DNA of 64,000 nucleotides from Astropecten irregularis. Its lineage: Eukaryota > Echinodermata > Asteroidea > Paxillosida > Astropectinidae. Where the stretch lies: contig OZ020258.1 of the NCBI GenBank assembly GCA_963971285.1, forward strand, positions 5,890,001 through 5,954,000. Direction: 5' to 3'. The notes under the pieces are model-generated. The model was not told the DNA's origin, made no database searches, and saw nothing but the letters and a program-made list of their open reading frames with translations. Each line of letters opens with the position of its first letter. Position 1 is the stretch's first letter. Both the position numbers and the translations under genes were made by a program. This document shows, piece after piece, positions 28-63,846 of the stretch.

Positions 28-174
28 CTTGTGGTCCTGCTGCTGCGACATCAAGGACTGCGTCTCCTCACTCAGTGGCTGCTCAGAGCCAAGACGCCTC
101 TCAGCGTTGGTCACCCACTCCAGCTGGTCAGTCAGCGACGTCATGACGTTGTTCAGCTTGTCTCCAATCTCAAC
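28..174 (-). CDS. First exon (E1) of cassette U9
   Basis: A 147-nt exon reads VEIGDKLNNVMTSLTDQLEW then VTNAERRLGSEQPLSEETQS and ends QQQDHK at the GTATAACC donor. It is a clear E1 by length, phase and the LGSEQPLSEE motif, and shows that the cassette array continues to the left of the window. The 301-base intron 175-475 that separates it from U8 holds nothing I recognise. Confidence 0.9.
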
Positions 175-3100
175 CTACACACCAAACATAAATTACGGCT
201 TCCTTTGATAATAATTCAACTAGAAATTAGCATTTGATTTGGAATATGGGGCGGGGCATCTGTGAGGCAGAGTTGTAGTCTAGAGACCATCAAGAGACCA
301 TCTCAAGACCACCAGTCTGAATTCAAGTCACAAGCCTTCCTTTGTCATTGTTCATTCTGTTGCCTGCAAATGGTCTGGTGACTGCTCTTGTGACTGGTCT
401 TGTGATGGTCTTAACTACAACACTTCTTTAAGGGAGGGGAAAGTACTGAGACTAAGAGATGGTAGACTTGCTGACCTGTTGGTCTTCCTGTGACTTGAGG
501 GTCTCTACCAAGGCCTGGGCTTCCTTCAACCAGTCATTGCTCTTGACAGAGACTTGCTCGTAGTTGCCTCTCAGGTCATTGGTCATGGTCTTCAGCTTGT
601 TCTGCTGGTCGGGAGAGAGACGGTCACGGTGGTCGCGCATGAACTGCTCGGCATTGTGGACCACCTCCAGGATGATGGGGCGGTGGTCGGTCACCTCGGT
701 GTGGACAGGCTGAAGGACAGAAAGACAACAGATGATGATAATAAACTGACCGTAGAGCCAACACTGGACCTAAACTTGTGTCTTATATTATGTCTCTGCA
801 CCTGGGACCAATTTTACGGCCCTGCTTAGCACAAAAATTTGCTAAACATAGTATCTGAACTTGACTGGAACCAATATCTATAGAACCAGGTTCCAGGATT
901 TGGACGTAGTCTGTTGAGAAGATGATTCTGTACCTGGTATTTCTCCATTTCCCTGCTGAGCGGGATCAGCTCCTGGCTGGTCGGTCTGGCCTCGGTCATT
1001 CTGACGTCTACGGAGCTCACCCACTCCTGCATGTTCTGCACAGACTCCACCTTGTCAGCCCAGAGACGCACGATGCGAAGATCTTCCAGGACGTCTACCA
1101 GGTGGCGATCCAGGTCATCGTAGCGCTGGTTGATGACCGCCACTTCCTTCTCCACTTCCGTGTCCTCTGTTACAAGCAAAAAAAGTTGATCGTGCTGAAG
1201 AGATGGATTGTAATACAGCCAAGGGCTTAGGTGATGACATACATTTTGTTTCAACTTCTCTTGGACTTTGAATGATTATCAATTCAGACTACATCTCTAA
1301 GTCATCTGTTAGAGACTTTCTGGTAGAGGAATTCACAGTTGTACTGCTCTGGACTATAAAGTAACATTTCACACTGCAAAGAGCCAGTACATTTTGGTTG
1401 CAGTGTGAGCGGCTGATTGCCTCCTTGTAGCACTACAAACATCAAAATGTTTTCACTTTTTACAGTCACCCGATATAAAAGGTAGTGGTCATGGATGGGT
1501 GATGCTAAAGATGCGTAAGGGCACCCAGTGTGAGTTACAACATGCAATCAAGTCTATCTACTGTCTGGGAACCTGATATCATAGCATTGCACTGTAGGAT
1601 CCATTCAGAATTTGGGACAGCTGTCAACGTATGCCTGACCATCATGACTCAACCTCAGTTCTTGTCCTGCCTACCTTCCAGGAATCCCTTGTCGGGCTGA
1701 TCGGCATACGCCTTGGGCTTGGCCTTCTGCGGCTGCCAGTCTGTCTGCAGCTGAGCACCAATCTGGGATGACCAGTAGTGGCGTCGGGCGTCCACTGCCG
1801 TCATGACCTCGCGGATCAGGTTGTCCAGGGCTGCCCCAACCTTGTTGACCTCGACGATCTTGGGTCGGTATTCGGTGATCTCTCGTTGAAGAGGCTACAG
1901 GAAAGCATATATCAGAAGAGTTACATCACCAGAGCTGTTGCTTGTTAAGACATAAAGCTACAAATGCCATGAGACTCTGGCTCAATCTGTAAGCATAGCT
2001 GTAGTATTCTACTTCTTCTTCCCTGTTTTGCCTCAGAAGATTGCAACGAAATGGATTAAAATGTTGGACCCAATTTCTGAATGAACCTACCTTGAGCTGC
2101 TGAATCTGTAGGTCTACTGACTTGGCATCCTGGACGGTCAGGTCCAGCTGGGACAGCTTGCCCTCCATGTTATCCAGCCAGAAGTTGGACTCCTTGGCTC
2201 TGCTCTCGTAGCGATTGGTGGCCACTTGACGATCCTCCAGTTGCTGGAGTCTGCAGGATGAATCAGAATCAGATTAAAACTCATGAATATGCATGAAGTA
2301 AATTTGTTGCTTTCATTGGCCGATATTACCAGCGAATATGTATATACTTCACTGCTTTCATTGTCAATGTCACCAGCTTTAGAAGAAATTTGGTGGCAAT
2401 AAACAAAAGCAACATTTTATTTGAAATGAGGAAGTGATTAGCAGGAGTTCAAATCAATGACAGCACTGCCGATAGGTGAGCTTGAATTGAGATCAGACTG
2501 AAATGAGGGCTTAGGGAGGGAAAACCGAATACTGGTTGTGCCCTGCCACTAAGAAGCCTGGCCAGGCCCAGGACTGTGTGAACTTCCAATTCTCCTTCGG
2601 TCAGCTCTGAACTGCAATACAACAGAGCTGACGAATATCAATTTAATCTAACTTCTGGACACTGTCCATGATCAATGTGGATTCAATCTGTCAATCGAGT
2701 TTATGTGAACACAGATCCAGGACACAGCAGGGCTAGAAAGTTGATAGTTTCAAGGCTAGAGATTATAGAAACCCAAGATCCTACGCATAGCCCAGGCCTG
2801 GCCTGGCTTTTCAGTGGCTGGGGCCAACCAATTTCAAAGTAACTCTTCCTTACCGTTTGGTCAGCACATCGTCCAGTGACTGCCAGTTCTGATCCAGGTT
2901 AGTCAGCACGGCAGTGACGAAGGAGGTGTCGCCAGCCTTGGGATGTTTCATCAGCTGCTCTCCGATGCTGTGGATGGTGTGGTACTCTGGATGGTGGCTC
3001 TCAACATCTTGGCTGATGAACTGAAAGATCAAGACAAGCTTTTGTGATTGAACCTAACAATCAAATTTGGACCTGAACAAGGATTTAAATTGATTCTGGA

Positions 3101-6100
3101 TCAAGATCTTAATCTCATTTGATACTGACTGAAGCTTCTTTACTCCTGTGTGCACTACTGTACCTGCAATGTCTCGTCAAGGTCTGGAATGTCTTTGCGG
3201 TTGAACTCAGCCGACTCCAGTTCCTCAAGCAGAGGCACCAGCCACTCTTCCAGGGTGTCAAGCTGCTTCTCCAGGTCTACCAGGTCACCGGACAGAGTCT
3301 GCAGGAGCTCACCTAGAGGGATCACGAGAGGTTGAAATACTATCAGTCAGGGTATTTTCTCAGATTTTCCTCGGCTAGGAGACAATCCTAGAGGAGATAA
3401 GAGACCTTTTCGAAATGGAGGCTCAGGCTCCGGTTCCATCATCCATTTGCTGAAAATATAGGTTGTGGTTTTTCATTGAACCTGAAGCTGTTTTCCTTTT
3501 CCAACCAGAGAATCTACTTCGGAACTGTAACCTAAAGCCTCTATTTTGATTACCCTTTTATTCATGAAATGGAGCCGAAACCTGAGCCTGAGGTTCAAAA
3601 AGGACCATAGTCTGTTGAGGAGTCATCTTCCCTCCACTCTTAACCCTTAAGCCCTGGTTCAGATTCTATCAGGCCAAAATACTGATTGGATTTACCATTC
3701 CTACCTAATTTCATCTGATTTTCCCTAACAATAGTTTCAAAGTTTATATTCCATCCTCAGGCTGTTTCAGGCTTGTCAGCTAGAAGAGAAGAATCACGTC
3801 AACTTAATAAACATCCAAAAGATTTTAGTCTTCTCATGGATCCTCCTGACCCATCAAGCCTGGTTCCTCTTACCATGAGTCTTCAGAGAGACAGTCAGGT
3901 CACCAAAGCGATCCTGGAAGTCGTCCACTTTGTCTTGGTAGATGCACTTCTCCTCAGGCTTGAGCTGACGCACCACGTCTGCGGTGGAGCGCAGGACTCG
4001 GTCGATGGTCGGACGGTGATTCTCAATGTCCTTCTCAAGAAGCTGGCGGTTCAAGAACAATTTCAACATCTTGAGAATCGAACTCTTACTGCTTTAATAC
4101 TCTGAACTCTTTGTGAGGTCAAATTAATTGCGGTATTCAAACAAAATGTTGCCATCAACTAACCCTGTATTCCTGGAGGTTCTCAACCAGAGGTTCCTTC
4201 TTGACTACAATGACGGTTCCCTTCTCCATGCGTAGCAGTGCTTTCTCCTTGTCTTCCAGCCACTTCAGCAGTCCGTCGAGGCTCTCCTGGACTGACTGGC
4301 AGTCGGCCAGGGCCTTCTTGAGCTTCTGCATGCGATCCTCAATGTCGCCCTCTAGACCGTCGTACTTCTCTTGAACGCCGGCTGTAGTGAGAATAAGTAC
4401 AGACAACTTAACAGATGGTATATCCTACTTTATAAGGCAAGCTTCAGATCATAATCAATTCATCAATCAATGGGATCAAGCGCCGCAGCAGGGCATTGCC
4501 GCATCTTCCTTCGAGCGTTACTCCTTCTGTCTTTTGATGGACGATGATGGCAGGATCTTACCTTTGGTCTGAGTGACGGTATCCTCAGTTTCTGGTTGGA
4601 CTTTGACAACATCATTTCCACTTTCCTTGACCGCATCTACGTCTTTGCCATGGAGCACCACATCATCGTGAAGGGCCTGTCCAGAGATGAATGTTCAGAA
4701 ATCAATCGTGAAAATTATGTTTATATCACCAGATATCTTGGTCAACCAACATGACTTAACATTAATCCAGTCAGTTTCCCTTATTATTTAATGATACTAC
4801 TGATTGAAAAGCTGCATTTCCTTTGAATGATCCCCCATGGACCATTTCTTAGGTTGGAGCATTGTTTATGCTGCACGTATCTTAAATGATCCTTGGGATA
4901 TAGCGGTGTGTGCATGGTTTCAAGGCTTCTGACTGCCAAACGAACAAAGATAATTGACTATTTGGGACACAACCGCCGACGTAGGTCTGGACAGCTCAGT
5001 TGGTAGAGTACAGCATTTTGGGATCACAGGTTTGAATCTCGCTCCAGTTCATTTTTCCTTGTTCACTTTACAATGACTTAAAATTAATCATTCAGTTTCC
5101 CTTGTGGTTATTTGATGAAAACATTCCCAAATGTTACATAGCACCAAGATTTCTTGCATTACCTTGAGCTCATCGATCTGTTTCTGAATGTTGAGTTGCT
5201 CGGCAGCGATGGGTTCCTCCAGGAGCTTGTCCAGATCAACCCGGGTCTCGTCGCACCACTTGTTGGTGCCCTTGACGTTGGTGTTGAACTTACGGTGCTT
5301 GTCCAGCAAGGTGTTCAGCCTGTTGGTGTGATCGTTGGTCTTCAATTTCAGGTTCTCGTAGCGTTCGTTGACGACGCCGACATTGTCGCGGATCGTGTTC
5401 TCTTCTGGGTTCTCCTGGAAGGCACGCTGTTCCTCGCGAGTCAGAACCGTGGAGCGGAACTCGCCAAGCTCCTCGCGGTAGCCCTGCAAATACAATGGGT
5501 GCAATGGAAGCTGATGATCTAGTCTCTTAAAGGTACAGTACAGGTTTGGTAACAAACCAAAACAGCAATGTTCACAGATTGACGTATAAATTACAGTATA
5601 AAGATGGACAAGATAGAAACCCTCTGGTAAAATATTTCTGCCTGAAATGCTACATTTGTTTAGAAAAGTGTAAAATAGATAATTTAGGTCTCGGTGAGAT
5701 CAAAAACGTTCTTTATGTTTTGTAAGAAAAAGAGAGTTGCTTTTTCTCTATGTTCTCAGGACTCAGAATGATGTCTGAATGAGCTCAAATTTTCACAGCC
5801 TTATTATTTCATGTACATGCTGTATCAGATAAAGTGTGCGTATCAAATTGTGTCTATTATATCGTCCACATTCTTCTTTGCATGTTTTCATCGATGTTCT
5901 GCACAAAATGAGATGTAAAAATACCCACTATAGGTCACATGATGGCATGTAAATATTGATCGCACATTGATCGGATACTGCATTACTCACATTAGCATTG
6001 TCCAGGAATTTCTCCCCGGATTTGTTGAGGTACTTCAGGTCTGCGCCGTGGTTCACCACATCATCAGAGAACGTCCTCTGCTTGTCGTGCTGCTCCTCCA

Positions 6101-18100: not shown

Positions 18101-18268
18101 GGCTCCGGCTCCATTTCGTGAATCCATTTTAAAATTATGGGTATCAAAATAGAGACTTTTGGCTGCAGTTGGGAAGTAGATTCTCTGGTTTGAAAAAGAA
18201 ACCAGAGCTTCAGTTTCAATGAATAACCACAACTTATATTTTCAGCATATGGATAACAGAGACGAAGT

Positions 18269-18299
<31 letters not shown>

Positions 18300-60200: not shown

Positions 60201-63200
60201 AGTTCGCCTTTGAGAAAGATCCTGTTAGGATCGAAACGCGTCAGGCCCTCCTAACTTTAAGCATTTGATATATTTCAGGTCATTTTGGCTGATGAGCAGT
60301 TTGCAGCAGTTTATTACTTGTATTGAACAACCACTATAATGAACAATCTCTGTGCATCCCGGCATGTTTGTTGTAGTGGTGTTCCACTGTACTGAGGTTC
60401 TGCTACTGTGATTGGTAATATTTGACCATTAGACACCAATATTATCCAAGTTAGGGGAAGGGTGTTTCACTTGTGTGGAAATGATTTCTCCTACCATTTT
60501 GTTCAAGGACTTGTTTTTTAAGATTCCTTGGACCTCAGTTGCTCAGCCTGGACTACTATAAGTCAAGAGGAGTGACGTACCTTGGTTTTACCGCCGATGT
60601 CAGAGTACATGGAATTGATCTTGTTCAGTTTGGTCTGGATGGTTCTGGCCATCTCGGGTGTGCTCTCACGGAGCAAGGGGGCAGCGTTCATGTTGACTGA
60701 CTCAATGCTGGACTGGTAGCTCTGGACCTCAGTGGCAAACGTCTGTGATACCGGGACAAATTGTAGACATTTAGGGGGGATACTAGAAAGACAGCATGGA
60801 TCTTATCAAATGACTCTGGATTATGTTAAAGATGATGAAGTAGACAAGGTGAAGATGAAATTGCAATGGCAGCAATCTACTCTGCTAAGCTTTAGGGAAT
60901 TGTTCTACTTTTTGAAATTGCCATTAACCCCCTCACATCTTTAAGACGTCAACACAAATCAACGCTGTGCATTGTTTGAATTCTACTTTTTACAATGAAC
61001 TTTAATAACACCATGTAATATTCAGCTTGTACTTTTTGCATTACCACATAAACCACATTGTGGTGTATCATGGTATTCTGGGTACCACACTAGGACCAGG
61101 AAAAACTATGTGTGGTAGACTGTGGTATGCAGGAGGGTGAGGGTTATTACCAAAACTCTATAAACCTTATTCAAGGTGCATCCATCCTACATTTGAAGCA
61201 TTGCAATCAGACCGAGGCTTGGATTCAAAATAGTCTGGTACCCGTTTTCTTTTTAGAACTGGTGTTATCTTTTCCCACCGTCATACAAGTAAGGTGATAA
61301 GATGGAAGCGCCTTGAATAAGGCATACGGGCCACAGTACAAGACTTCAAGTAGTATCAGGGGAGACAGGAAATATGATTACAGATGATGTCAAATGGAGG
61401 TTCTGATTACCTTCTGCTGATTGCAGCTCTCCAGTAGAGGCTCTCTCTTGGACTGGATGACAGTGCCTTGCTTCAGCTGAGTGACATTGCGGTCAGCAGT
61501 GTCCAGCCACCTCAGGATGCTGTCCAGGTTGTCCTGCACGTCCTGGGTCTTGGTGAAAGTGCTGCGCAGCATGTTCATGCGGTCAGTGCATTGGACGTTC
61601 AGACCATTGTACTTGTCAATGATGGAACCTGTGGTATTGGTCAAGAATTTGAGGATCAATCAATCAAACAGTGGGAGCATGCTCCGCGGCAGCGCACTGC
61701 CGCATCTACCTTCGAGTGGTACTCCTTCAGTCTCGTGATGATGGCCATCCCCCATGTACTGGTGAGACATTTGAATGGCATTCCCAAAACATGTTCTAGA
61801 GTAAATAAGGTAGGTTTGCAGTGACACCATATAATCTCTTCTGTGAGTGTGCGGTTCTAAGAAGAGCCGATGGTTTGATCTCTCGATGTTCCAAACGATG
61901 TACTCTGTTCAATCTTCAGGAGGACTGGTAACCCTCCTGAAGACGAACAGAGCAAACTATTTGGAACATCGATTCTTCTCAGAACCACACACTTACAGAA
62001 TTGATTGGTACATGGTGCTACCGCAAACCTACCTTATTCAGTCTTTTTTATTCTCAACGGTAATTGCCGAAAAGGATGGAAGTGTTCTTCCAAACTCCAA
62101 TCCCTGTCTGAGTACTTACTGACAGTCCTCTCCACGTCAGTCTTGAGTTCGGGGTGGTCCTCGCACAGATCTTTACCAGTCTCACGGACACGATCCACGT
62201 CCTTGGCATGGGCTGCCACATCATCACAGAACAGCTGTCAGGCAAGAAAAAGTGAAATGATGAAACACTTGATGACTTCATCTAAGTAATTCAACAGGGA
62301 ATAACCTGTTAGAGGAAAACTGTTGGTTCTAGGATGACACAATGATCCAAATCAGGAATGGTCTGGTAGCCAAAAAAGTTTTCATTTTAAAGAAACAGGC
62401 TTTACCAACGCTTTACTTGGGGTAAACAAAGCATTAACACTATGCTCTAAAATGTAACATAAATAATGAATTACGTTTTTGTGATTGGAACATTTCAGTG
62501 CATGTTCAATTATAAATTTGTAAAATTCTTCTCGAACATGTTAGTTCACAGATGTCATCTGACTAAGCTCTGCAGTCGGAAAAAAGGTCAACACTGAGGT
62601 ACATTTGAATTAAGGCCAAGTTTTATCAGCTCTGGGTTAGACAGTGGAACTATTGGACAATTCAAAACCTCTATTAAGAATGAAATAAATCTGAAATACA
62701 TTAATTTATTCCAGATTACTTTGGACATAATGAGAATTAGTTTGATTTCTGATTTTCTGGTTTTAGTTTTGCTACCTTCAGTCGATCCATCTGTTTCTGC
62801 ACAAACTCTGGTTCCACTCCAACAGGCTCTCTCATCAGCCTATTCATGGTCTCGTAGGCTTCCTGCAGCCAGACAAGAATCACATCAACAGAGTCTTTGT
62901 AGCAGGTCAGCTTGTCCAAGAGATCACTCAAGACTGTGAAGCACATCCTGGTGGAGGCCTCCAGCTGGTTGTAGCGGGTGTTCAAGCTGTTCAGGTTGTC
63001 ACGGATCAGGTTCCTCTCGGGGTCCTCCCGGAAGCTCTGGGTGAACTGGCGCGGGAGGGCTGTGTTGCGGAAGTCAGCCAGAGTCTGGCGGAAGACGTCT
63101 GCTCCCTTGACAAACTTCTGGCCGGAGGCTTTGATCATCATCAGATCTCCCTTGTGACTGGAGACATCCTCCCTGAAGTCCTTGAGCTGCTTCAGCTGCT

Positions 63201-63846
63201 GGCGGAGAGTGTCAATGTCTGAGCTGATCTTACGGTTGAACTTCTCCTCCATGGTGCGCTCTGCTCCCTGGAGCCACCGTTCGAAGGCCTCCGAATCAGG
63301 CTCCAGAGACTCCAGGACGTCTCCTTCGCTTTTGAGCTGTTGCATGCGGGACTCAGAATCCTTTGCTGCTCGGTCGTAACGTGTTTTCAGAGCCGTCTTG
63401 CCTTCCTGGAGCTTGTTGCGGACATCAGGTCCGAGCTGTGTACCACGATTCTCAAGGAAGGTCTCAGTGTTGTGTACGGCAAGAAGGACTGGTTGTTGAT
63501 GGACCAAGATGTCGTCATTGAGGGTCTGAAAGCCAAAAATTCATATAATTCTAAAATGTCTGCAAGCACCCAGCAGTATTAGAATCTCCTAGACTATAAT
63601 TAACTGTCTATAATTGTCTAATCCATCCTACTTATAAATAACTCTCAAACTTAATAAGTCATCTAGCTAGGACTTGTGGACTTCAGTCTTCATTCCCACC
63701 TTGTGTTCTTCGACTTGCTGAATTAGAGGTGGATGTTGCTCACGGAGAGGCTGCTCTTTGCCAAGGGACTGTTCTGCCTTGGTTATCCAATCCAGCAGAT
63801 CCACCAGGGTGTCTACTCTCTGCTTGGTCTCCCGCTCCAGGGAAGC
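28..63846 (-). CDS. Giant spectrin-repeat cytoskeletal protein, internal segment (about 90 exons, 5' and 3' ends outside window)
   Basis: One continuous minus-strand reading frame can be followed through about 90 exons, each bounded by GT/AG introns (seen on the given strand as AC left of the exon and CT right of it). Joined phases are consistent throughout. The product is a rod of spectrin-like triple-helical repeats. Helix-A motifs such as LDWVTEAEKRLGSEQP, WLDEAEKDVHKMDKG and WLDSMERRLNQLQP recur, as do helix-C motifs such as LKSRYDVV, INQRYDDL and NWQSLEDVL. Repeats are grouped in an 853-residue, 11-exon cassette present eight times plus one exon. There is no signal peptide, membrane segment or enzymatic motif. 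By family knowledge such rods act as long flexible cytoplasmic linkers between actin, microtubules or organelles. Alternatives are spectraplakin, nesprin/MSP-300-like, or another giant spectrin relative. A spectrin-type rod is near certain; the exact family is open. No start, stop, promoter or polyA signal lies in the window. Confidence 0.93.
476..6992 (-). CDS. Cassette U8, 853 codons, 12 exons
   Basis: Exons in gene order: E1 6846-6992; E2 5991-6416; E3 5163-5483; E4 4562-4676; E5 4164-4381; E6a 3874-4042; E6b 3164-3312; E7 2854-3020; E8 2091-2250; E9 1675-1894; E10 934-1166; E11 476-709. All lengths are canonical except that E6 (318 nt) is split 169 + 149. E3 reads LTREEQRAFQENPEENTIRD, and the linker has drifted to ARRHYWSSQIGAQLQTDWQP. 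Introns above 300 bases: 709-934 region has a MITE end; 1167-1674, 2251-2853 and the rest of 5484-5990 show nothing recognised beyond one interspersed repeat at 5529-5700; 3313-3873 (MITE), 4677-5162 and 6417-6845 (SINEs), 6993-7566 (MITE). Confidence 0.93.
799..850. mobile_element. MITE, family C, end fragment
   Basis: The sequence CCTGGGACCAATTTTACGGC and CTGCTTAGCACAAAAATTTG resembles a family C terminus beside U8 exon E10. No second end is visible. Confidence 0.35.
3164..4042 (-). CDS. U8 exon E6 split in two (intron after nt 169)
   Basis: E6a is 3874-4042 (169 nt) and E6b is 3164-3312 (149 nt); the sum equals the 318 nt of unsplit E6. The junction reads VSLKTHG then ELLQTLSGDLVDLEKQ, matching KHGDQLRLLNQ in U7. 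The intron is phase 1, and its 561 bases contain a foldback element at 3396-3606. Confidence 0.9.
3396..3606. mobile_element. Foldback element, family D
   Basis: The ends are complementary and rich in GGCTCAGGCTCC / GAGCCTGAG. The interior includes TATAGGTTGTGGTTTTTCAT and AGAGAATCTACTTC, shared with copies at 17502, 18065, 30722 and 59052. It lies in the intron that splits U8 exon E6. Confidence 0.65.
4455..4553. repeat. Intronic repeat shared with 61655-61745
   Basis: CAATCAATGGGATCAAGCG, CATTGCCGCATCTTCCTTCG and TACTCCTTCTGTCTTTTGAT are collinear with the sequence at 61655. Both copies are in the E4/E5 intron, of U8 and U1 respectively. Confidence 0.55.
4790..5100 (+). mobile_element. tRNA-derived SINE, family 1
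   Basis: An A-box-like ACAGCTCAGTTGGTAGAG and a B-box-like GGTTTGAATCTCGC lie about 30 bases apart. They are preceded by the shared segment CAAACGAACAAAGATAATTG and followed by GTTCACTTTACAATGACTTA. Similar copies occur at 6563, 10586, 30530 (reverse), 41425 (reverse), 45405 and 47845. The tRNA-like part lacks a complete acceptor stem, so it is a retroposon and not a tRNA gene. Confidence 0.75.
5529..5700. repeat. Interspersed repeat, family L
   Basis: AAAGGTACAGTACAGGTTTG and TTCACAGATTGACGTATAAA followed by GCCTGAAATGCTACATTTGT resemble 41977-42080 and 51694-51835. Confidence 0.5.
6563..6712 (+). mobile_element. SINE family 1, short copy
   Basis: It contains GGCTGGATAGCTCAGTTG and GCAGGTTCATATCCTGCTCC, followed by the CAATTGTTCTTTGTTCACAT tail that other copies share. 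The 5' part (CTGACTGCCAAAC segment) is missing. Confidence 0.65.
7295..7542. mobile_element. MITE, family C
   Basis: The terminal inverted repeats are GGGGCCAATTTCATGGAGCT and the complement of CGTGAAGTTGGCCCC. The sub-terminal motif TTGCTTAGCACAAAAATG is shared with copies at 8921, 42185 and 46649. Confidence 0.7.
7567..13989 (-). CDS. Cassette U7, 853 codons, 11 exons (canonical lengths throughout)
   Basis: Exons in gene order: E1 13843-13989; E2 13203-13628; E3 12723-13043; E4 11950-12064; E5 10947-11164; E6 10222-10539; E7 9853-10019; E8 9243-9402; E9 8626-8845; E10 8119-8351; E11 7567-7800. Every exon has the reference length used here, so this unit is the cleanest template. E3 reads LSRQFNRNFQENPEPTIIRD; the linker reads STKPHYRSNQLSGSMTREQM. 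Introns above 300 bases: 7801-8118 (a poly-C run at about 7935-7947, otherwise nothing), 8846-9242 (MITE), 9403-9852 (nothing recognised), 10540-10946 (SINE), 11165-11949 (possible retroelement scrap at 11690-11850), 12065-12722 (large foldback element). Confidence 0.94.
8921..9161. mobile_element. MITE, family C
   Basis: The ends are GGGGCCAATTTGATAGAGAT and CTATGAAATTGGGCCC. The interior is collinear with the copy at 7295 (ACAAACCACCATTGAAAATT, GTTGTTAATCCTC). Confidence 0.7.
10586..10912 (+). mobile_element. SINE family 1, longest copy
   Basis: It runs from GATTGAAAAGCCCCATCCTC through CTGACTGCCAAACAAACAAA, the A-box region GGCTGGGTAGCTCAGTTGG and the B-box GGTTTGAATCCCGCTCC to the AGTCAGTTTCCCCTTGTGG end. 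It is the best reference copy in the window. Confidence 0.75.
12202..12538. mobile_element. Foldback element, family E (about 337 bp)
   Basis: The terminal inverted repeats are AAAGGCCTTTCCACACTACC and GGATAGTGTGAAAAGCCCTTT. The GC-rich interior contains further inverted CCCGGTTC / GAACCGGG segments. It is the only copy in the window. Confidence 0.65.
14034..14331. mobile_element. MITE, family G
   Basis: It runs from CATAGAAGGATCCCC to AATGTGAAATCCCTCTA and is collinear with 19421-19692 (ATACCTGAGCTGAGTGTGAT, GTTCAGCACAGAGAGCTTAA). Confidence 0.65.
14460..26255 (-). CDS. Cassette U6, 844 codons plus 24-39 from extra mini-exons, 11-13 exons
   Basis: Exons in gene order: E1 26109-26255; E2 25543-25968; E3 25098-25418; E4 23095-23209; E5 22743-22960; E6 22115-22432; E7 21476-21642; E8 20814-20973; possible mini-exons 19980-20024 and 18781-18852; E9 16234-16426; E10 15364-15596; E11 14460-14693. 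E3 is an outlier (LPPKFSSNYQETPEPTWLRD), and E4 has lost the DDVV start (NVRMDVIQHFSEVEKVRDTG). The linker reads NKPFYFSTKQGRGEPAVPGI. It is the longest unit genomically (11.8 kb) because of introns 16427-20813 and 23210-25097, both full of repeats. Other introns above 300 bases: 14694-15363 (second SINE), 15597-16233 (inverted repeat), 20974-21475, 21643-22114, 22433-22742 and 26256-26724 (nothing recognised). Confidence 0.92.
15118..15235 (-). mobile_element. tRNA-derived SINE, family 2 (reverse copy)
   Basis: The reverse complement reads CTGTGGCCTAGTGGTCTGG (A-box-like), then ACTCAAGATCTTGTGGTC, then TGTGGGTTCGAATCCAGCC (B-box). It is closely related to the copy at 31155. The tRNA-like stems are imperfect. 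Confidence 0.65.
15972..16145. repeat. Inverted-repeat element
   Basis: CCGGATCTCAGACAAAC (16003) pairs with GTTTGTCTGACATCCGG (16070) with one mismatch, and short TCCGCAC / GTGCGGA ends lie outside. It is probably a small foldback element; no second copy is seen. Confidence 0.5.
17502..17695. mobile_element. Foldback element, family D
   Basis: It shares TATAGGTTGCGGTTTTTCAT with the copy at 3396. One end reads CGGCTCAGGCTCAGG and the other GGAGCCGGAGACAGAGTCGG. Confidence 0.6.
18065..18340. mobile_element. Foldback element, family D, best copy with GGAGCC microsatellite
   Basis: The terminal inverted repeats GGCCTTTCTCAAAGCTCGGC and GCTGAGTTTTGAGAAAGGCC are nearly perfect. The interior holds GTAGATTCTCTGGTTTGAAA, and a (GGAGCC)n run at about 18269-18300 sits inside the right arm. 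Confidence 0.8.
18781..18852 (-). CDS. U6-specific 72-nt mini-exon (24 residues), probably a spacer
   Basis: An in-frame phase-0 exon between E8 and E9 of U6 reads RAPVETPMEEYDAEEQKLPK then SVSK. The acceptor is a good CGTATTTGTAG and the donor is GTAGTAACG. It is acidic and proline-containing, unlike the helical repeats, so it would insert a flexible spacer before the E9 helix. No other unit has it. Its position in the largest intron and its length of exactly three times 24 suit a cassette exon that could be skipped without a frameshift. It could also be a chance open stretch; the splice signals and frame argue against that. Confidence 0.65.
19112..19292 (+). mobile_element. Family P repeat with a foldback 5' part
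   Basis: A reverse copy of AAGTTAGGAAGGCTTGACAC and GATCCTAGCAGGATC is joined head-to-head to a forward copy that reads GTGTCAGGCCCTCCTAACTT and ends GCAGTTTATTACTTGTATTG. Confidence 0.55.
19421..19692. mobile_element. MITE, family G
   Basis: The terminal inverted repeats AATAGAGGGATTCC and GAAATCCCTCTATT bound 272 bases. The interior reads GTACCTGAGCTGAGAGTGCA and GTACAGCACAGAGAGCTTCG, shared with the copy at 14034. Confidence 0.7.
19980..20024 (-). CDS. Possible second U6 mini-exon (45 nt, 15 residues)
   Basis: The stretch is open in phase 0 and reads LKQYAREIRLAKKSQ. It has an acceptor GAACTGTTTGCAG and a weaker donor GTTTGTGAC. It would lie directly upstream of the 72-nt mini-exon and add a basic helical segment. 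The length is a multiple of three and the phase matches its neighbours. The donor is not ideal and there is no paralogous copy to compare, so this is tentative. Confidence 0.4.
20548..20690. repeat. Short tandem repeat of ATGACAACATCCT units
   Basis: ATGACAACATCC or close variants recur at about 20549, 20580, 20604, 20633 and 20657, alternating with GAGATAATTCATCA or TTAATTCAA spacers. Confidence 0.6.
23300..23662. mobile_element. Foldback element, family F (about 363 bp)
   Basis: The left arm GGTTTGCGGGAGCACCGTGT, then GTGTGTGGTTCCGAGAAGAA, is mirrored by the right arm CATGGTGCTACCGCAAACC and GTTCTTCTCAGAATCACA. Arms of more than 100 bases can pair around a loop that has a CTGCTGGTTATAAGTGCT core. 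Confidence 0.75.
24609..24861. mobile_element. MITE, family A, interrupted by a family B MITE
   Basis: The outer ends are GGGGTCGATTTCACGAAG and TTTGGTGAAATCAACCCC. The middle of the element (after AACTCAAGTTACAAA) is interrupted at 24658 by a family B element, then resumes ATCGTATCCTACGTAGGGCT. Confidence 0.75.
24658..24772. mobile_element. MITE, family B, nested in a family A element
   Basis: It starts GGGCCTGTTTGTTTCAGGC and ends GGCGACACAAACAGG. The interior (TATCCTGCCTGCGACGTGGA) matches copies at 42935 and 52877. Confidence 0.75.
26725..32860 (-). CDS. Cassette U5, 860 codons, 11 exons (canonical exon set)
   Basis: Exons in gene order: E1 32714-32860; E2 31939-32364; E3 31344-31664; E4 30904-31018; E5 30134-30351; E6 29227-29538 (312 nt); E7 28738-28904; E8 28283-28442; E9 27674-27923 (250 nt); E10 27186-27415 (230 nt); E11 26725-26958. 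It has the longest linker of all units, rich in Arg, Asp and Thr (HSTQLSEGRKPDSRAATPRQ, then TRDRDTMRQKPVDLDRSG). E3 reads LPRQVTRSFQETPESNVIRN. Introns above 300 bases: 27924-28282 (nothing recognised), 28905-29226 (SINE scrap), 29539-30133 (CTCGAGT-rich stretch near 29703-29850), 30352-30903 (SINE and MITE scraps), 31019-31343 (second SINE family), 32365-32713 (MITE end scrap). Confidence 0.94.
28996..29075 (+). mobile_element. SINE family 1, fragment
   Basis: Only the B-box half remains, GTCGCAGGTTCGAATCCTAC followed by TCCAGTCAATTTT. It lies in a U5 intron beside exon E6. Confidence 0.45.
30530..30725 (-). mobile_element. SINE family 1, reverse copy
   Basis: The reverse complement of the family is seen as TTGACTGGAGCAGGGTTCGA, then a degraded A-box, then CAATTATCTTTGTTCGTTTG. 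It lies directly beside a fragment of a foldback element. Confidence 0.65.
30722..30892. mobile_element. Foldback element, family D, 5'-truncated
   Basis: The right two thirds of the family is present: GTAGATTCTCTGGTTTGAAA, CAATGAAGAACCATAACC and a terminal GAGCCTGAGTCTGAGCCTGA. It abuts the reverse SINE at 30530. Confidence 0.55.
31155..31285 (+). mobile_element. tRNA-derived SINE, family 2
   Basis: It reads GCTGTGGCCTAGTTGTCTGG, TACTCAAGATCTTGTGGTAA and TTGTGGGTTCGAATCCAACC, followed by a non-tRNA tail. It shares its whole core with the reverse copy at 15118-15235. Confidence 0.65.
32934..33485. repeat. Minisatellite, four units of about 140 bp
   Basis: Units begin at about 32934, 33072, 33213 and 33353 (TTACTCATATAAGACCCGCC). 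Each contains TCAGTGAGTTTGAGATGAGT and TTACTCAATCTGTACTCACA. The array lies in the intron between U5 E1 and U4 E11 and decays toward the exon at 33675. Confidence 0.85.
33675..43493 (-). CDS. Cassette U4, 844 codons, 12 exons
   Basis: Exons in gene order: E1 43347-43493; E2a 40796-40984; E2b 40434-40670; E3 39632-39952; E4 39102-39216; E5 38730-38947; E6 37887-38204; E7 37279-37445; E8 36145-36304; E9 35251-35443; E10 34553-34785; E11 33675-33908. The sequence is close to the cassette consensus: LPRDFNRSFTENPETQTINN in E3, WLDEAEKNTHKMEKGTLIAI in E5, VPHYRSTELSEVTKDKSPRK in the linker. E2 is split after codon 63. Introns above 300 bases: 33909-34552 (short tandem duplications), 34786-35250 and 36305-37278 (MITEs), 35444-36144 (29-bp duplication), 37446-37886, 39217-39631 and 39953-40433 (nothing recognised), 38205-38729 (MITE fragment), 40985-43346 (several repeats). 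Confidence 0.93.
35095..35205. mobile_element. MITE, family A, partial
   Basis: It contains TTATGATGCATTGCAGCCCT, ACGTAGGATACGATGGGC and the end GCTTTGTGAAATCAACC. The left end is missing. Confidence 0.6.
35521..35577. repeat. 29-bp direct duplication
   Basis: Two adjacent copies of a 29-base unit begin TACAGAGACATCGATGATGA. They are identical except at the edge. This is a simple recent intronic duplication. Confidence 0.75.
36809..36992. mobile_element. MITE, family J
   Basis: Perfect 13-base terminal inverted repeats AATACAGGCGATT and AATCGCCTGTATT bound 184 bases. A truncated relative with AATACAGGCGAATCACAATA is at about 28637-28735. Confidence 0.7.
37096..37244. mobile_element. MITE, family A
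   Basis: The ends are GGGATTGATTTCACCAAACT and GGGCTTTGTGAAATCGACCCC. The interior carries GCATTGCAGTCCTACGTAGG and TCGTAACTCGAGTTACGATG. Confidence 0.75.
40434..40984 (-). CDS. U4 exon E2 split in two (intron after nt 189)
   Basis: E2a is 40796-40984 (189 nt, ends NYQSTNRQTK) and E2b is 40434-40670 (237 nt, begins LTTALDELCKFSDDEAEFEP). The sum equals the canonical 426. The 125-base phase-0 intron has no recognisable repeat. Confidence 0.9.
41425..41700 (-). mobile_element. SINE family 1, reverse copy
   Basis: It reads TTGACTGGAGCAGGATTCAA, CCAACTGAGCTATCCAGCC and CAATTATCTTTGTTAG, then the upstream segment GGATCATGTAAGATACAAGC. The A- and B-box regions are both present in reverse orientation. 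Confidence 0.7.
41977..42080. repeat. Interspersed repeat, family L
   Basis: It contains AAAGGTACTGGAATACTTTG, CTTCACAGATTTACCAGATA and GTCTGAAATGCTGTATTTAT, collinear with 51694-51835. Confidence 0.5.
42185..42308. mobile_element. MITE, family C, partial
   Basis: The right half of the family: CATGAAAGTTTGGTTATAAA, CCTGTTTGATCAAGAAAGAC and the end TCTATGAAATTGGCACC. It shows the uninterrupted TTGATC site that is broken in the copy at 46649. Confidence 0.6.
42935..43055. mobile_element. MITE, family B
   Basis: A perfect 15-base terminal inverted repeat, GGGCCTGTTTGTTTC, bounds 121 bases; the right end is GAAACAAACAGGCCC. The interior reads CATATCCGGCATGGGACATG. Confidence 0.8.
43759..44522 (-). 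CDS. U3 exons E10/E11 with boundary shifted by 30 nt
   Basis: E10 is 44260-44522 (263 nt) and E11 is 43759-43962 (204 nt); elsewhere they are 233 and 234. The sum, 467 nt, is unchanged. E10 ends EFKDLVDDIASKK, so it carries the residues that open E11 in other units (compare QSDIHTHQP). E11 therefore starts at GPVSDVTVHAEQFL. The protein is intact; only the intron has moved, in phase, by ten codons. Confidence 0.85.
43759..50288 (-). CDS. Cassette U3, 844 codons, 12 exons
   Basis: Exons in gene order: E1 50142-50288; E2a 49786-50020; E2b 49435-49625; fused E3+E4 48323-48758; E5 47495-47712; E6a 47042-47185; E6b 46381-46554; E7 45692-45858; E8 45042-45201; E9 44719-44911; E10 44260-44522; E11 43759-43962. 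E3 reads MSRQFQRSFQENPDSEHLRK; the linker reads TRPHYRSTELDLTKP. This unit shows all four kinds of change: a fused exon, two extra introns, a boundary slid by 30 nt (E10 263 nt and E11 204 nt instead of 233 and 234), and a normal-length total. Introns above 300 bases: 45202-45691 (SINE), 45859-46380 (hairpin repeat tail), 46555-47041 (MITE with captured exon fragment), 47186-47494 (nothing recognised), 47713-48322 (SINE), 48759-49434 (hairpin repeat). Confidence 0.92.
45405..45566 (+). mobile_element. SINE family 1, degraded copy
   Basis: It keeps CTGACTGCCAAACAAACAAA and GCACCAGTACGGTATTCTGG plus GTTTGAATCCCGCC. The A-box region has decayed to AGTATAGCCCAGAG. Confidence 0.6.
46002..46342 (+). 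mobile_element. Hairpin-tail retroelement fragment (family P)
   Basis: It has the same structure as 59930-60325: a long pyrimidine-rich lead, then AAAGATCCTGCCAGGATCAA, AACGTCAGGCCCTCCTAACT and the GCAGTTTATTACTTGTATTG end. Confidence 0.55.
46381..47185 (-). CDS. U3 exon E6 split in two (intron after nt 144)
   Basis: E6a is 47042-47185 (144 nt) and E6b is 46381-46554 (174 nt); the sum is again 318. The junction reads LDDLHSRYNK then VKDTTQEHGRQMGSLKDRL. The intron is phase 0 and sits 25 nt upstream of the U8 split in aligned coordinates. It contains the MITE with the captured exon fragment. Confidence 0.9.
46649..46960. mobile_element. MITE, family C, carrying an exon fragment of this gene
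   Basis: The ends are GGGCCAATTTCATAGAGCTG and GATCTGTGAAATTGGCCCC. A 66-base insert at 46713-46778 lies between two TGATC pentamers and interrupts family sequence seen whole at 42185-42308. Within it, 46742-46781 matches the U3 E3 exon at 48638-48677 with one mismatch in 40, in the same orientation. Confidence 0.75.
47845..48060 (+). mobile_element. SINE family 1, degraded copy
   Basis: It shows CTTTTGACTGCCAAACAAAC, GGGACACCACCAACGTAGGG and GAACGCCAGTACGATATTCC. The B-box region is decayed (GGTTGCTGGTTAATTC). Confidence 0.6.
48323..48758 (-). CDS. U3 fused exon E3+E4 (intron absent)
   Basis: The exon is 436 nt, exactly 321 + 115 nt. It opens IYKDFLAQFRQNVMSRQFQR and passes through RYEKLKTDCFNHGRHLQRLM, NEWLQVAEETLQTILQKP and KRQIDELDIFKKDVKKHKTD with no break at the usual junction (ELK/xxDDV in other units). 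It is also the source-like sequence for the fragment found inside the MITE at 46649-46960 (match at 48638-48677). Confidence 0.92.
48985..49143 (+). mobile_element. Family P repeat with a foldback 5' part
   Basis: It has the same head-to-head layout as 19112: TTTCGATCCTAGCAGGATCT, then GCATCAGGCCCTCCTAACTC and GATGAGCAGTTTGCAGCAGT. Confidence 0.55.
49435..50020 (-). CDS. U3 exon E2 split in two (intron after nt 235)
   Basis: E2a is 49786-50020 (235 nt, ends LDKIEEGC plus one base) and E2b is 49435-49625 (191 nt, begins DEFATWLEKAEQELVAIKEN). The sum equals 426. The 160-base phase-1 intron lies 46 nt downstream of the U4 split in aligned coordinates. Confidence 0.9.
50289..50312. repeat. GA microsatellite next to a splice acceptor
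   Basis: A (GA)n run starts right beside U3 exon E1. On the coding strand it is a CT-rich tract that can serve as the polypyrimidine tract of the acceptor. Confidence 0.7.
50396..55483 (-). CDS. Cassette U2, 849 codons, 9 exons (most compact unit)
   Basis: Exons in gene order: E1 55337-55483; E2 54785-55210; E3 54202-54519 (318 nt, one codon short at NMPREF); fused E4+E5 53675-54007; E6 53182-53499; E7 52644-52810; fused E8+E9 51917-52287; E10 51231-51463; E11 50396-50629. The unit spans only 5.1 kb because two introns are missing and the rest are short. E3 keeps MPREFIRSFQENPDTNLI and the linker reads MPHQKSTSVGLIRRPGERL. Introns above 300 bases: 50630-51230 (a weak MITE end near 51085-51145), 51464-51916 (an interspersed repeat), 52288-52643 (nothing recognised), 52811-53181 (a 120-bp MITE). 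Confidence 0.92.
51694..51835. repeat. Interspersed repeat, family L
   Basis: It contains CATACTTTGGTAGTATACCG, CTCCACAGATTTACCAATAA and GTCTGAAATGCTGTATTCAT, collinear with 41977-42080. Confidence 0.5.
51917..52287 (-). CDS. U2 fused exon E8+E9 (intron absent) with linker
   Basis: A 371-nt exon combines E8 (160 nt) and a 211-nt E9. It reads KSQYESCQAATKQYQTASK, SKWLDTTESRVNQLQPVSKD, then TIEIQLKEVRPIREDVVAHE, and a basic linker with PVMPHQKSTSVGLIRRPGER before the SFLEG end. In U6 the same junction is the largest intron of the window (4.4 kb), so the position varies from no intron to the longest one. Confidence 0.9.
52877..52996. mobile_element. MITE, family B
   Basis: GGGCCTGTTTGTTTCGTGC at the left and CGAAACAAACAAGCCC at the right bound 120 bases. 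The interior reads GCGTATCCTGCATTGCACGT. Confidence 0.8.
53675..54007 (-). CDS. U2 fused exon E4+E5 (intron absent)
   Basis: The exon is 333 nt, exactly 115 + 218 nt of the separate exons in other units. It reads DDVVHFSDEIDSVKKNGNDL, then VARTTDDVNQRYNSLHGQIG, WLDQAEKEVHIQDKGTVIKV and ends SQNCK at the donor. The former phase-1 intron site falls in TTDDVNQRY and the frame is uninterrupted. It also shows directly how E4 (helix B) and E5 (helix C plus next helix A) join in the mature protein. Confidence 0.92.
55596..63846 (-). CDS. Cassette U1 (most upstream complete unit), 852 codons, 11 exons
   Basis: Exons in gene order: E1 63700-63846; fused E2+E3 62776-63525; E4 62120-62234; E5 61411-61628; E6a 60581-60742; E6b 59316-59471; E7 58221-58387; E8 57197-57356; E9 56690-56906; E10 56228-56457; E11 55596-55829. 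It is among the most diverged units: the linker reads KPVQRTMQLTE where others have PHYRST, and E6b reads LTQVETTEESIDTMDDF where others have an EDWLLP helix. The E3 part keeps LPRQFTQSFREDPERNLIRD. The E2/E3 intron is absent, while E6 carries an extra intron after codon 54. Introns above 300 bases: 57357-58220 (LINE-like remnant and hairpin repeat), 58388-59315 (two MITEs), 59472-60580 (nested repeats), 60743-61410 (one MITE), 61629-62119 (two repeats), 62235-62775 (nothing recognised). Confidence 0.9.
57770..57990 (+). pseudogene. Possible decayed non-LTR retrotransposon reverse transcriptase C-terminus
   Basis: A short plus-strand open stretch (57842-57980) reads ASEERILSQADEELNCGCSK then KEATRLAKDRRVYKMIEVCH and a stop. 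The RLAKDR arrangement near the end resembles the last residues of many LINE open reading frames. There is no intact upstream reverse transcriptase here, so it is at most a 5'-truncated remnant. Confidence 0.3.
58026..58180. mobile_element. Family P repeat, inverted arrangement
   Basis: A reverse 3' end (CTGCTGCAAACTGCTCATCA) is followed by the forward hairpin part TTTGAGAAAGATCCTGCTAG and GATCGAAATGTCAGGCC. Shorter pieces of the family lie at 10118-10195, 24150-24212 and 55980-56050. Confidence 0.5.
58915..59049. mobile_element. MITE, family A, intact copy
   Basis: The ends are GGGGTCGATTCCACGAAACC and TTTGGTGAAATCGACCCC. It shows the uninterrupted centre (AAGTTACGAAGGAAAACC) that is broken by a family B insertion at 24658. 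Confidence 0.75.
59052..59262. mobile_element. Foldback element, family D
   Basis: It runs from CTCACGCTCAGGCTCTGG to CCGAAGTTTGGAAAAGGGCC with the shared GTAGATTCTCTGGTTTGAAA in the interior. It directly follows a family A element that ends at 59049. Confidence 0.6.
59316..60742 (-). CDS. U1 exon E6 split in two (intron after nt 162)
   Basis: E6a is 60581-60742 (162 nt) and E6b is 59316-59471 (156 nt); the sum is 318. The junction reads MYSDIGGKTK then DLGDDWNSTLTQVE. This is a third distinct intron position in the same exon (phase 0, 18 nt from the U3 site and 7 nt from the U8 site). The intron carries nested repeats. Confidence 0.85.
59642..60391. mobile_element. Foldback element, family H, split by a later insertion
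   Basis: The left end TAGTGGAACGCCACTATAAT (from 59642) pairs with the right end ACCACTATAATGAACAATC through TGTTGTAGTGGTGTTCCACT (60328-60391). A pyrimidine-rich hairpin-type element at about 59930-60325 sits between the two halves. A related scrap (CCCGCTATAATGAACATTG) lies near 44032. Confidence 0.6.
59930..60325 (+). mobile_element. Hairpin-tail retroelement fragment (family P), nested
   Basis: A pyrimidine-rich 5' part is followed by GAGAAAGATCCTGTTAGGAT and CGAAACGCGTCAGGCC, then TTTCAGGTCATTTTGGCTGA and GCAGTTTATTACTTGTATTG. The same 3' portion recurs at 19112, 46002, 48985 and 58026. The fixed 3' end and variable 5' extent suggest a retroelement; I suspect a Penelope-like or LINE 3' end but cannot prove it. 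Confidence 0.55.
61165..61322. mobile_element. MITE, family I
   Basis: The terminal inverted repeats are CCTTATTCAAGGTGC and GCGCCTTGAATAAGG (one mismatch), bounding 158 bases. It is a single copy in the window. Confidence 0.7.
61655..61745. repeat. Intronic repeat shared with 4455-4553
   Basis: CAATCAATCAAACAGTGGGA, GCACTGCCGCATCTACCTTC and GTACTCCTTCAGTCTCGTGA match the copy at 4455 in order and orientation. Confidence 0.55.
61806..62036. mobile_element. Foldback element, family F
   Basis: A perfect 14-base terminal inverted repeat, TAAGGTAGGTTTGC, is at 61806-61819 and 62023-62036. The arms continue as GTGAGTGTGCGGTTCTAAGA and its mirror, with a very short loop near 61930. A fragment of the family is also visible at about 38430-38500. 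Confidence 0.8.
62776..63525 (-). CDS. U1 fused exon E2+E3 (intron absent)
   Basis: A single 750-nt open exon holds what is two exons (426 + 321 = 747 nt) in most other units, one codon longer. Reading begins with LNDDILVHQQPVLLAVHN and runs through WLQGAERTMEEK, then FVKGADVFRQTLADFRNTALPRQF to the helix NEW-equivalent VILVWLQEAYETMNRLM and ends MDRLK before the donor. The join at the former intron (GADV/FRQT) is seamless, as expected for precise intron loss or for an ancestral intronless state. It is the longest exon in the window. Confidence 0.9.

Follow-up and report, generated by a model that had tools for sequence, protein, structure and literature searches.

A tandem array of about thirteen seven-repeat spectrin cassettes in a predicted spectraplakin gene of the sea star Astropecten irregularis

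The giant nesprins (SYNE1/2 and MSP-300) have very long spectrin rods and an N-terminal pair of CH domains and carry KASH instead of GAS2 at the C terminus; we know of no seven-repeat super-periodicity in them. Spectraplakins are typified by MACF1, dystonin, and Short stop, with which Caenorhabditis elegans VAB-10, not among the proteins compared here, is grouped. Passages of PMC8012552 describe, for MACF1b, a plakin repeat domain that follows the plakin domain and precedes the spectrin repeats, and passages of PMC9320987 a central plakin repeat region in Shot-PH. The C. elegans protein ANC-1 contains six 903-residue repeats that are almost 100% conserved in DNA, according to excerpts of PMC8139857. 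Here, we describe a stretch of 64,000 nucleotides of Astropecten irregularis DNA (the window; positions 5890001 to 5954000 of the contig C22, in an assembly of 475.7 Mb), which is probably the middle of a spectraplakin gene whose first rod module was duplicated in frame about thirteenfold in the echinoderm stem lineage, the copies having been kept separately.

On the minus strand of the window, eight complete copies of a multi-exon cassette occupy positions 476 to 63846 (C1 to C8, numbered right to left and so 5' to 3' along the gene), and a ninth is represented at the left edge by its first exon (Table 1), as had been proposed in an earlier reading of the window made from its sequence only. 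The gene model was built from an all-against-all comparison of open frames, a gene finder trained on those frames, exon-class profiles, and inspection of exon borders. It has 90 exons, all AG..GT and with zero stop codons, every cassette is 0 mod 3 in length, and the total of 6,848 residues, including the ninth e1, agrees with the approximately 6,850 estimated before. In the all-against-all comparison, the largest cluster of repeat open frames has 64 members on the minus strand and 8 on the plus strand, and the plus strand has zero matches to any exon-class profile. The eight cassettes are 29 to 41% identical. A dot plot of the spliced protein against itself, the check put forward with the sequence-only reading, has diagonals near multiples of 844 to 853 residues (844, 1704, 2548, 4245, and 5945; z of 16 to 25), whereas at single-repeat spacing (offsets 95 to 129) the largest peak, at 127, is at about z 5. 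An origin of the array by tandem duplication of single repeats was rejected on this contrast, and the proposal that whole multi-exon blocks were duplicated is borne out.

A genome search finds spectrin matches flanking the window on both sides; the array had been expected to continue at least leftward, which it does, and it extends rightward too. Profiles trained on the window cassettes identify two cassettes upstream (U2 and U1) and three downstream (D1 to D3), giving thirteen in total, and the exon order in these five is that of the window, save at the end of D3. The assembled array has 11,099 residues, including the first rod exon, and about 91 spectrin repeats. Its 149 exons (thirteen cassettes plus the first rod exon) have no stop codons and AG..GT borders, in a check that also allowed a GC donor, and each cassette is 0 mod 3. 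Leave-one-out exon classing over the thirteen cassettes was correct for 141 of 143 exons, with both misses in D3. The 78 cassette pairs are 25.7 to 41.3% identical (mean, 32.9%) with 27 invariant columns, and this low identity (26 to 41%) marks the duplications, judged by divergence, as old. It also bears on misassembly, by which a single cassette might have been multiplied artificially and for which no sign was found: the copies differ at 59 to 74% of aligned residues and partly in their introns, and they occur in the same order in proteins of other species (see below), a cross-species orthology that refutes this explanation and leaves it with practically no credence. Beyond U2, the profile scan gives just one exon resembling e11 and a pair of weak matches; the region between the plakin domain and U2 (C22:5970581-5982123) contains this e11-like exon, a 147-nt exon, and the weak e2 and e10 matches, perhaps the remains of a further diverged cassette.

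The canonical exons e1 to e11 measure 147, 426, 321, 115, 218, 318, 167, 160, 193 to 250, about 233, and 234 nt. Canonical intron positions are retained in 125 of 130 instances over the thirteen cassettes (75 of 80 in the window), five of them being present in all thirteen cassettes and five in twelve. The five lost positions are four fusions (C1 e2+e3; C2 e4+e5 and e8+e9; C3 e3+e4) and a shift of the C3 e10/e11 border. This border (43759 to 44522) is displaced by exactly 30 nt, with 263+204 instead of 233+234 nt and an unchanged sum, either by intron sliding or by loss plus gain. The sequence-only reading held that the same 11-exon set recurs each time with mostly identical lengths; the order does recur, but the plain layout is present in only three of the eight window cassettes (C5, C6, and C7), with fused exons in C1, C2, and C3, split exons in C1, C3, C4, and C8, and the shifted border in C3. 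Nine introns lie at positions unique to one cassette (two each in U1 and C3, and one each in U2, C1, C4, C8, and D2) and are best read as gains. The five in the window, in e2 at 49626-49785 (160 nt, C3) and 40671-40795 (125 nt, C4) and in e6 at 59472-60580 (1,109 nt, C1), 46555-47041 (487 nt, C3), and 3313-3873 (561 nt, C8), do not share a position with one another, as would be expected if introns had been gained several times independently. A blastn search of 284 kb returns only self-matches for the unique introns of 139, 125, 160, 174, and 143 nt, and 10 to 41 other matches for the longer ones (389, 487, 1,109, and 561 nt), as interspersed repeats would give; a common source or introner-like element for the nine is unsupported by this pattern. 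Cassette borders are in phase 0 at both ends, and block duplication or skipping would therefore cause no frameshift. The thirteen old and separately kept copies of an 11-exon block thus document how introns were gained and lost.

Each cassette contains seven spectrin-like repeats, as first read, with seven conserved helix-A tryptophan columns that are retained in 12, 13, 13, 13, 11, 12, and 13 of the 13 copies; the repeats have the character of spectrin repeats, which are triple helical, approximately 106 to 120 residues long, and marked by a helix-A tryptophan. Pfam Spectrin matches both cassettes scanned (5.8e-39 and 2.6e-40, five stretches each), and a PDB sequence search returns one distinct sequence, dystrophin. 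An AlphaFold2 model of a sea cucumber relative (P0001; see below) is almost all-helical (mean pLDDT, 75.5; pTM, 0.34), and its best PDB structural matches are beta2-spectrin, alpha-actinin, and plectin plakin-domain repeats. The loop coded by e9 varies between cassettes, the corresponding stretch of P0001 is of low confidence in the model, and the loop could be a hinge. Among the alignment rows printed, nine A. irregularis cassettes and two other echinoderm rows have a [FY]xExP motif in a loop of the second repeat, and none of the six outgroup rows has it; the motif probably arose before the duplications.

The same strand bears, in order, CH1 and CH2, a plakin-domain homologue, the array, a rod, an EF-hand, and GAS2, which is the order in spectraplakins, and because of this complement the gene is assigned to the spectraplakins (MACF1/dystonin/Short stop type) and not to the nesprins. 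The CH pair (Pfam CH, 3.5e-41, two stretches) is coded by minus-strand exons between C22:6000644 and 6049409, and the region is also matched by tblastn with a SYNE1 CH pair (2.6e-21). The upstream 492-residue plakin model is 33% identical to an insect protein (P0005, 3e-69) and 29% to an amphioxus protein (P0124, 2e-62) and also matches Antedon and vertebrate spectraplakins; Pfam labels it Spectrin and, at 0.1 bit above cut-off, Spectrin_3. Downstream, a 2,650-residue model of predicted exons lacks the cassette exon order and can be aligned from end to end with shark dystonin (35.5%) and with proteins of zebrafish (35.2%), insect (34.8%), and whale (34.5%). Pfam identifies GAS2 (1.1e-30) and EF-hand_5 (3.7e-6), with one EF-hand modelled and no pair. 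A nuclear anchor of the nesprin or ANC-1 type with repeated blocks was considered first, from the name of an Apostichopus japonicus record and from Pfam Spectrin_SYNE1, which is above cut-off in one of the two cassettes scanned; a second echinoderm record (P0123) has a name that points the same way. It was dropped on the CH, plakin, EF-hand, and GAS2 matches and is now very improbable: the plakin-domain homologue lies upstream, the rod aligns along dystonin, and the EF-hand and GAS2, a module that a nesprin would not have, both lie downstream in the same exon chain. The two best matches to C4-C8 are named MACF1-like, and no convincing match to human KASH sequences was found within 264 kb (best E value, 0.089, at noise level).

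Array and rod are separated by a 35,379-nt intron that splits the codon G|AG, the last cassette exon (130 nt) ending in G and the first rod exon starting with AG; the join gives a glutamate within what becomes a whole spectrin repeat. Proteins of Antedon, amphioxus, insect, zebrafish, whale, and shark align collinearly across the joined sequence. That the array might be a separate gene nested between the halves of a spectraplakin, or be present only in a transcript of its own, is brought to mind by the length of this intron and by the Lytechinus and Anneissia models (see below), which list no CH, EF-hand, or GAS2 domain. We consider it distinctly unlikely, given the in-frame completion of the last cassette's repeat, the collinearity in six other species, and the Antedon protein P0123, in which the plakin region, four cassettes, and the rod are united in one annotated polypeptide; an internal promoter may nevertheless give rise to isoforms with the array. 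The in-frame join and the lack of stop codons answer in part the concern, raised with the sequence-only reading, that transcripts might break the region into separate genes, and we infer that all parts of the spectraplakin belong to a single transcript. The total gene model has approximately 15,088 residues and is incomplete at both ends. Within the array-rod intron lies a 229-codon minus-strand open frame (C22:5850150-5850836) coding for an immunoglobulin domain of the I-set type (25.9 bits against a cut-off of 23.7); this frame may be an alternative exon of the same-strand gene or a nested gene.

Relatives of the cassette are found in echinoderms and beyond. A one-cassette query matches the sea cucumber A. 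japonicus P0001 (35% over 91%), which spans e2 to the following cassette's e2 (e1 and e4 undetected) and is therefore itself a piece of a tandem array. With C4-C8 as the query, the two best matches are the sea urchin Lytechinus variegatus P0003 (56% over 100%) and the crinoid Anneissia japonica P0004 (35% over 100%), and the other 118 of the best 120 of 144 matches come from insects and vertebrates, most of them under the names dystonin or MACF1; with residues 4503 to 6901 of P0004 as the query, P0123 of the crinoid Antedon mediterranea was found as well, and so was amphioxus. There are no hemichordates among the best 120 of 144 or the best 120 of 1,434 matches, to which length limits and ranking apply, such that absence from the group is not implied. 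A cassette-profile scan of the 241 fetched proteins (threshold, at least 450 profile positions and at least 150 bits) gives one long match in 226, including the fragment P0001, and none in 12 (P0002, a record without a name, and 11 fish proteins), and there are seven cassette-like segments in P0003, eight in P0004 (which holds a part-cassette in addition), and four in P0123, some cut at an end. With P0002 excluded, a single such segment is present in 225 of 236 non-echinoderm proteins and none in the other 11; the set is redundant, with many isoforms of one gene, and the number of species is smaller. The single copy is seen in the insect and amphioxus proteins and in most vertebrate proteins fetched. 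The cassette, which the sequence-only reading did not recognize from described spectraplakins or nesprins, thus matches the start of the ordinary spectraplakin rod, and its multiplication is what is unusual. That reading was sound on block duplication, the seven repeats, and a setting unlike that of ANC-1, and its assumption of an echinoderm agrees with the relatives found here, but it did not place the gene as a spectraplakin. Most of the spectraplakins compared have a single first seven-repeat module, and we treat the thirteenfold module as a variant feature of the class, not a defining one.

The names "putative nesprin-1" (P0001) and "muscle-specific protein 300 kDa-like" (P0123) sit on pieces of this spectraplakin; these two public echinoderm records carry misleading names, which the present analysis corrects. 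A sea cucumber MACF1 acetylated peptide is listed in a part of PMC6037860, and an Apostichopus table from a genome-wide association study (GWAS), within PMC12784826, has two consecutively numbered genes named "putative nesprin-1-like", possibly both pieces of this gene.

The cassettes of other echinoderms correspond to individual A. irregularis cassettes. The seven sea urchin cassettes (Lv0 to Lv6) match C2 to C8 in order at 49 to 60% identity, and are at most 43% identical to any other cassette; those of Anneissia correspond to U1, C1, C2, C7, C8, D1, D2, and D3 in order (38 to 51%), those of Antedon to C8, D1, D2, and D3, and that of the sea cucumber to D1 (55%). In the second of two maximum-likelihood trees, from which zebrafish was dropped and to which amphioxus, Antedon, and the Anneissia part-cassette were added, 11 of 13 position clades are supported at 100/100, C1 at 100/99, and C7 at 95/98. 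Single-copy outgroups separate from the array cassettes in both trees (96/89 and 100/98), and A. irregularis C2, C7, C8, and D1 pair with sea urchin or sea cucumber, with crinoids outside (98-100/94-100), which places the window in an eleutherozoan. We note that Shark and Am0 are long branches in the second tree and that composition deviates for zebrafish and shark in the first and for amphioxus in the second. Because cassettes of different species group in the trees according to their place in the array, the duplications seem to have occurred in the echinoderm stem, before crinoids branched off, and every cassette appears to have stayed distinct from a time preceding the divergence of the main echinoderm groups. 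The crinoid cassette Aj3 joins C7 (96/98 and 95/98) with C3-C6 left outside, finer branching being supported at about 80 to 90 or less, and this points to block loss or a model gap in Anneissia rather than a later gain of C3-C6. Loss, isoforms, or incomplete models may explain why C3-C6 are missing from Anneissia and why only C8, D1, D2, and D3 are present in Antedon. D3 is taken as the ancestral place of the module because it branches first in both trees (89/90 and 91/86) and adjoins the rod like the single copy elsewhere, the rod adjacency being the better argument. Similarity is mixed in this respect: D3 has the highest scores with shark, whale, and amphioxus, though not with the two insects, and by identity zebrafish and insects are closest to cassettes other than D3.

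Several observations weigh against a thirteenfold, individually maintained array within one spectraplakin. The last two D3 exons fit another exon class better, and the supports for D3 as the first branch are below the starred level. The start codon, the exons of the CH1-CH2 interval, and the C-terminal tail are missing from the model, some low-scoring exons are doubtful, and cassette skipping, alternative promoters, or separate transcripts are possible. The 11 proteins below the one-cassette threshold are all fish MACF1, and the crinoid models hold fewer cassettes than A. irregularis, which would mean, were those models complete, that echinoderms differ in cassette number.

Our preferred account is that the first seven-repeat module of an ordinary spectraplakin rod, single in the ancestor, would have been duplicated as a genomic block in the echinoderm stem, so that about 13 in-frame copies (approximately 91 spectrin repeats) follow the plakin domain and precede the remaining rod, and that each copy would thereafter have been kept individually, in order and in register. 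A spectrin repeat is about 5 nm long, and the array would thus lengthen the linker by 0.4 to 0.5 micrometre, holding the actin-binding N terminus and the microtubule-binding GAS2 C terminus much further apart; alternatively, it would offer a much larger docking surface or scaffold. Such a spacer or scaffold role, like the protein length, is an inference; passages of PMC8012552 describe the MACF1 repeats as an extended flexible linker between the actin and microtubule ends and also as a signalling platform. The one-to-one conservation of cassettes would favor cassette-specific roles; the Antedon cassettes (29.6, 37.5, 32.6, and 37.6%) are all less conserved than the rod (38.4%), two of them only slightly, which would fit a spacer. 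This lower conservation, together with single-copy relatives elsewhere and the smaller cassette counts of crinoid models, could also be explained by constructive neutral drift, in which a tolerant rod would have grown neutrally and the repeats would add no function. That explanation seems rather unlikely, in that the sea urchin protein has seven cassettes one-to-one, in order, and with substantial identity, the helix-A tryptophans persist in nearly all copies, and no modelled cassette has a stop or frameshift. More speculatively, and as a possibility we entertain without favoring it, echinoderms may have a giant spectraplakin of their own, with a module multiplied about thirteenfold before the crinoid split and thereafter fixed at every position, each cassette having its own ligand or place on a half-micrometre actin-to-microtubule ruler, perhaps in echinoderm-specific cells or tissues. 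The predicted spectraplakin would be, to our knowledge, among the largest proteins known. With single-copy forms in most proteins of other animals examined, the array would be a natural experiment on rod length in an actin-microtubule linker.

Introns of the array contain a variety of other features. A tRNA-Thr gene (anticodon ggt) lies on the minus strand at 41444-41516, between e1 and e2 of C4, and two plus-strand tRNA matches (6565-6637 and 10766-10839) are from Rfam alone. A match to the histone 3'-UTR stem-loop that exceeds its cut-off by 1.4 bits is located on the minus strand between e3 and e4 of C6 (23322-23367), and no histone-like frame was noticed among the open frames listed near it. 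A minisatellite of approximately 3.9 copies of a 140-nt unit (32933-33472) lies in the intron between C4 and C5. Dispersed repeats are common to introns of different cassettes (4834-4996, 10618-10780, 45404-45498, and 47833-47995; 19173-19263, 46221-46335, 49061-49146, and 60212-60326); these families are 60 to 92% alike, ungapped, and are probably mobile elements younger than the cassettes.

Table 1. Coordinates of the cassettes and their exons (e1 to e11) in the window
Cassette	Positions	Strand	Length (aa)	Exons and remarks
C1	55596..63846	-	852	e1 63700-63846; e2+e3 fused 62776-63525; e4 62120-62234; e5 61411-61628; e6 split 60581-60742 + 59316-59471; e7 58221-58387; e8 57197-57356; e9 56690-56906; e10 56228-56457; e11 55596-55829
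C2	50396..55483	-	849	e1 55337-55483; e2 54785-55210; e3 54202-54519; e4+e5 fused 53675-54007; e6 53182-53499; e7 52644-52810; e8+e9 fused 51917-52287; e10 51231-51463; e11 50396-50629
C3	43759..50288	-	844	e1 50142-50288; e2 split 49786-50020 + 49435-49625; e3+e4 fused 48323-48758; e5 47495-47712; e6 split 47042-47185 + 46381-46554; e7 45692-45858; e8 45042-45201; e9 44719-44911; e10 44260-44522; e11 43759-43962
C4	33675..43493	-	844	e1 43347-43493; e2 split 40796-40984 + 40434-40670; e3 39632-39952; e4 39102-39216; e5 38730-38947; e6 37887-38204; e7 37279-37445; e8 36145-36304; e9 35251-35443; e10 34553-34785; e11 33675-33908
C5	26725..32860	-	860	e1 32714-32860; e2 31939-32364; e3 31344-31664; e4 30904-31018; e5 30134-30351; e6 29227-29538; e7 28738-28904; e8 28283-28442; e9 27674-27923; e10 27186-27415; e11 26725-26958
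C6	14460..26255	-	844	e1 26109-26255; e2 25543-25968; e3 25098-25418; e4 23095-23209; e5 22743-22960; e6 22115-22432; e7 21476-21642; e8 20814-20973; e9 16234-16426; e10 15364-15596; e11 14460-14693
C7	7567..13989	-	853	e1 13843-13989; e2 13203-13628; e3 12723-13043; e4 11950-12064; e5 10947-11164; e6 10222-10539; e7 9853-10019; e8 9243-9402; e9 8626-8845; e10 8119-8351; e11 7567-7800
C8	476..6992	-	853	e1 6846-6992; e2 5991-6416; e3 5163-5483; e4 4562-4676; e5 4164-4381; e6 split 3874-4042 + 3164-3312; e7 2854-3020; e8 2091-2250; e9 1675-1894; e10 934-1166; e11 476-709
D1 e1	28..174	-	49	rest of cassette D1 outside the window (C22:5884352-5890174)

No description of such an array was found in the literature searched on spectraplakins and MACF1, plakin evolution, spectrin-repeat duplication, and echinoderms, most subscription journals lying outside the search, and the accessible part of a paper on spectraplakin origins (PMC9145010) has zero occurrences of "urchin". 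The closest counterparts are the echinoderm models from Lytechinus, Anneissia, Antedon, and Apostichopus, in which the same cassettes occur one-to-one and in the same order; these are partial and are known by their names, domains, and sequences. The giant nesprins share the long spectrin-repeat rod and the CH pair, and differ in ending with KASH where this gene has GAS2. ANC-1, as far as the excerpts describe it, is likewise a very large linker of the cytoskeleton in which blocks of some 900 residues are arranged in tandem, but it is a KASH protein with near-identical blocks, whereas those described here are old, diverged, and individually conserved; the sequence-only reading had already set the two apart. 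Relative to MACF1b and Shot-PH, the extra material that follows the plakin domain consists here of more spectrin repeats, and relative to spectraplakins at large the cassette is homologous to their first rod repeats, with 13 copies in place of what is mostly one.

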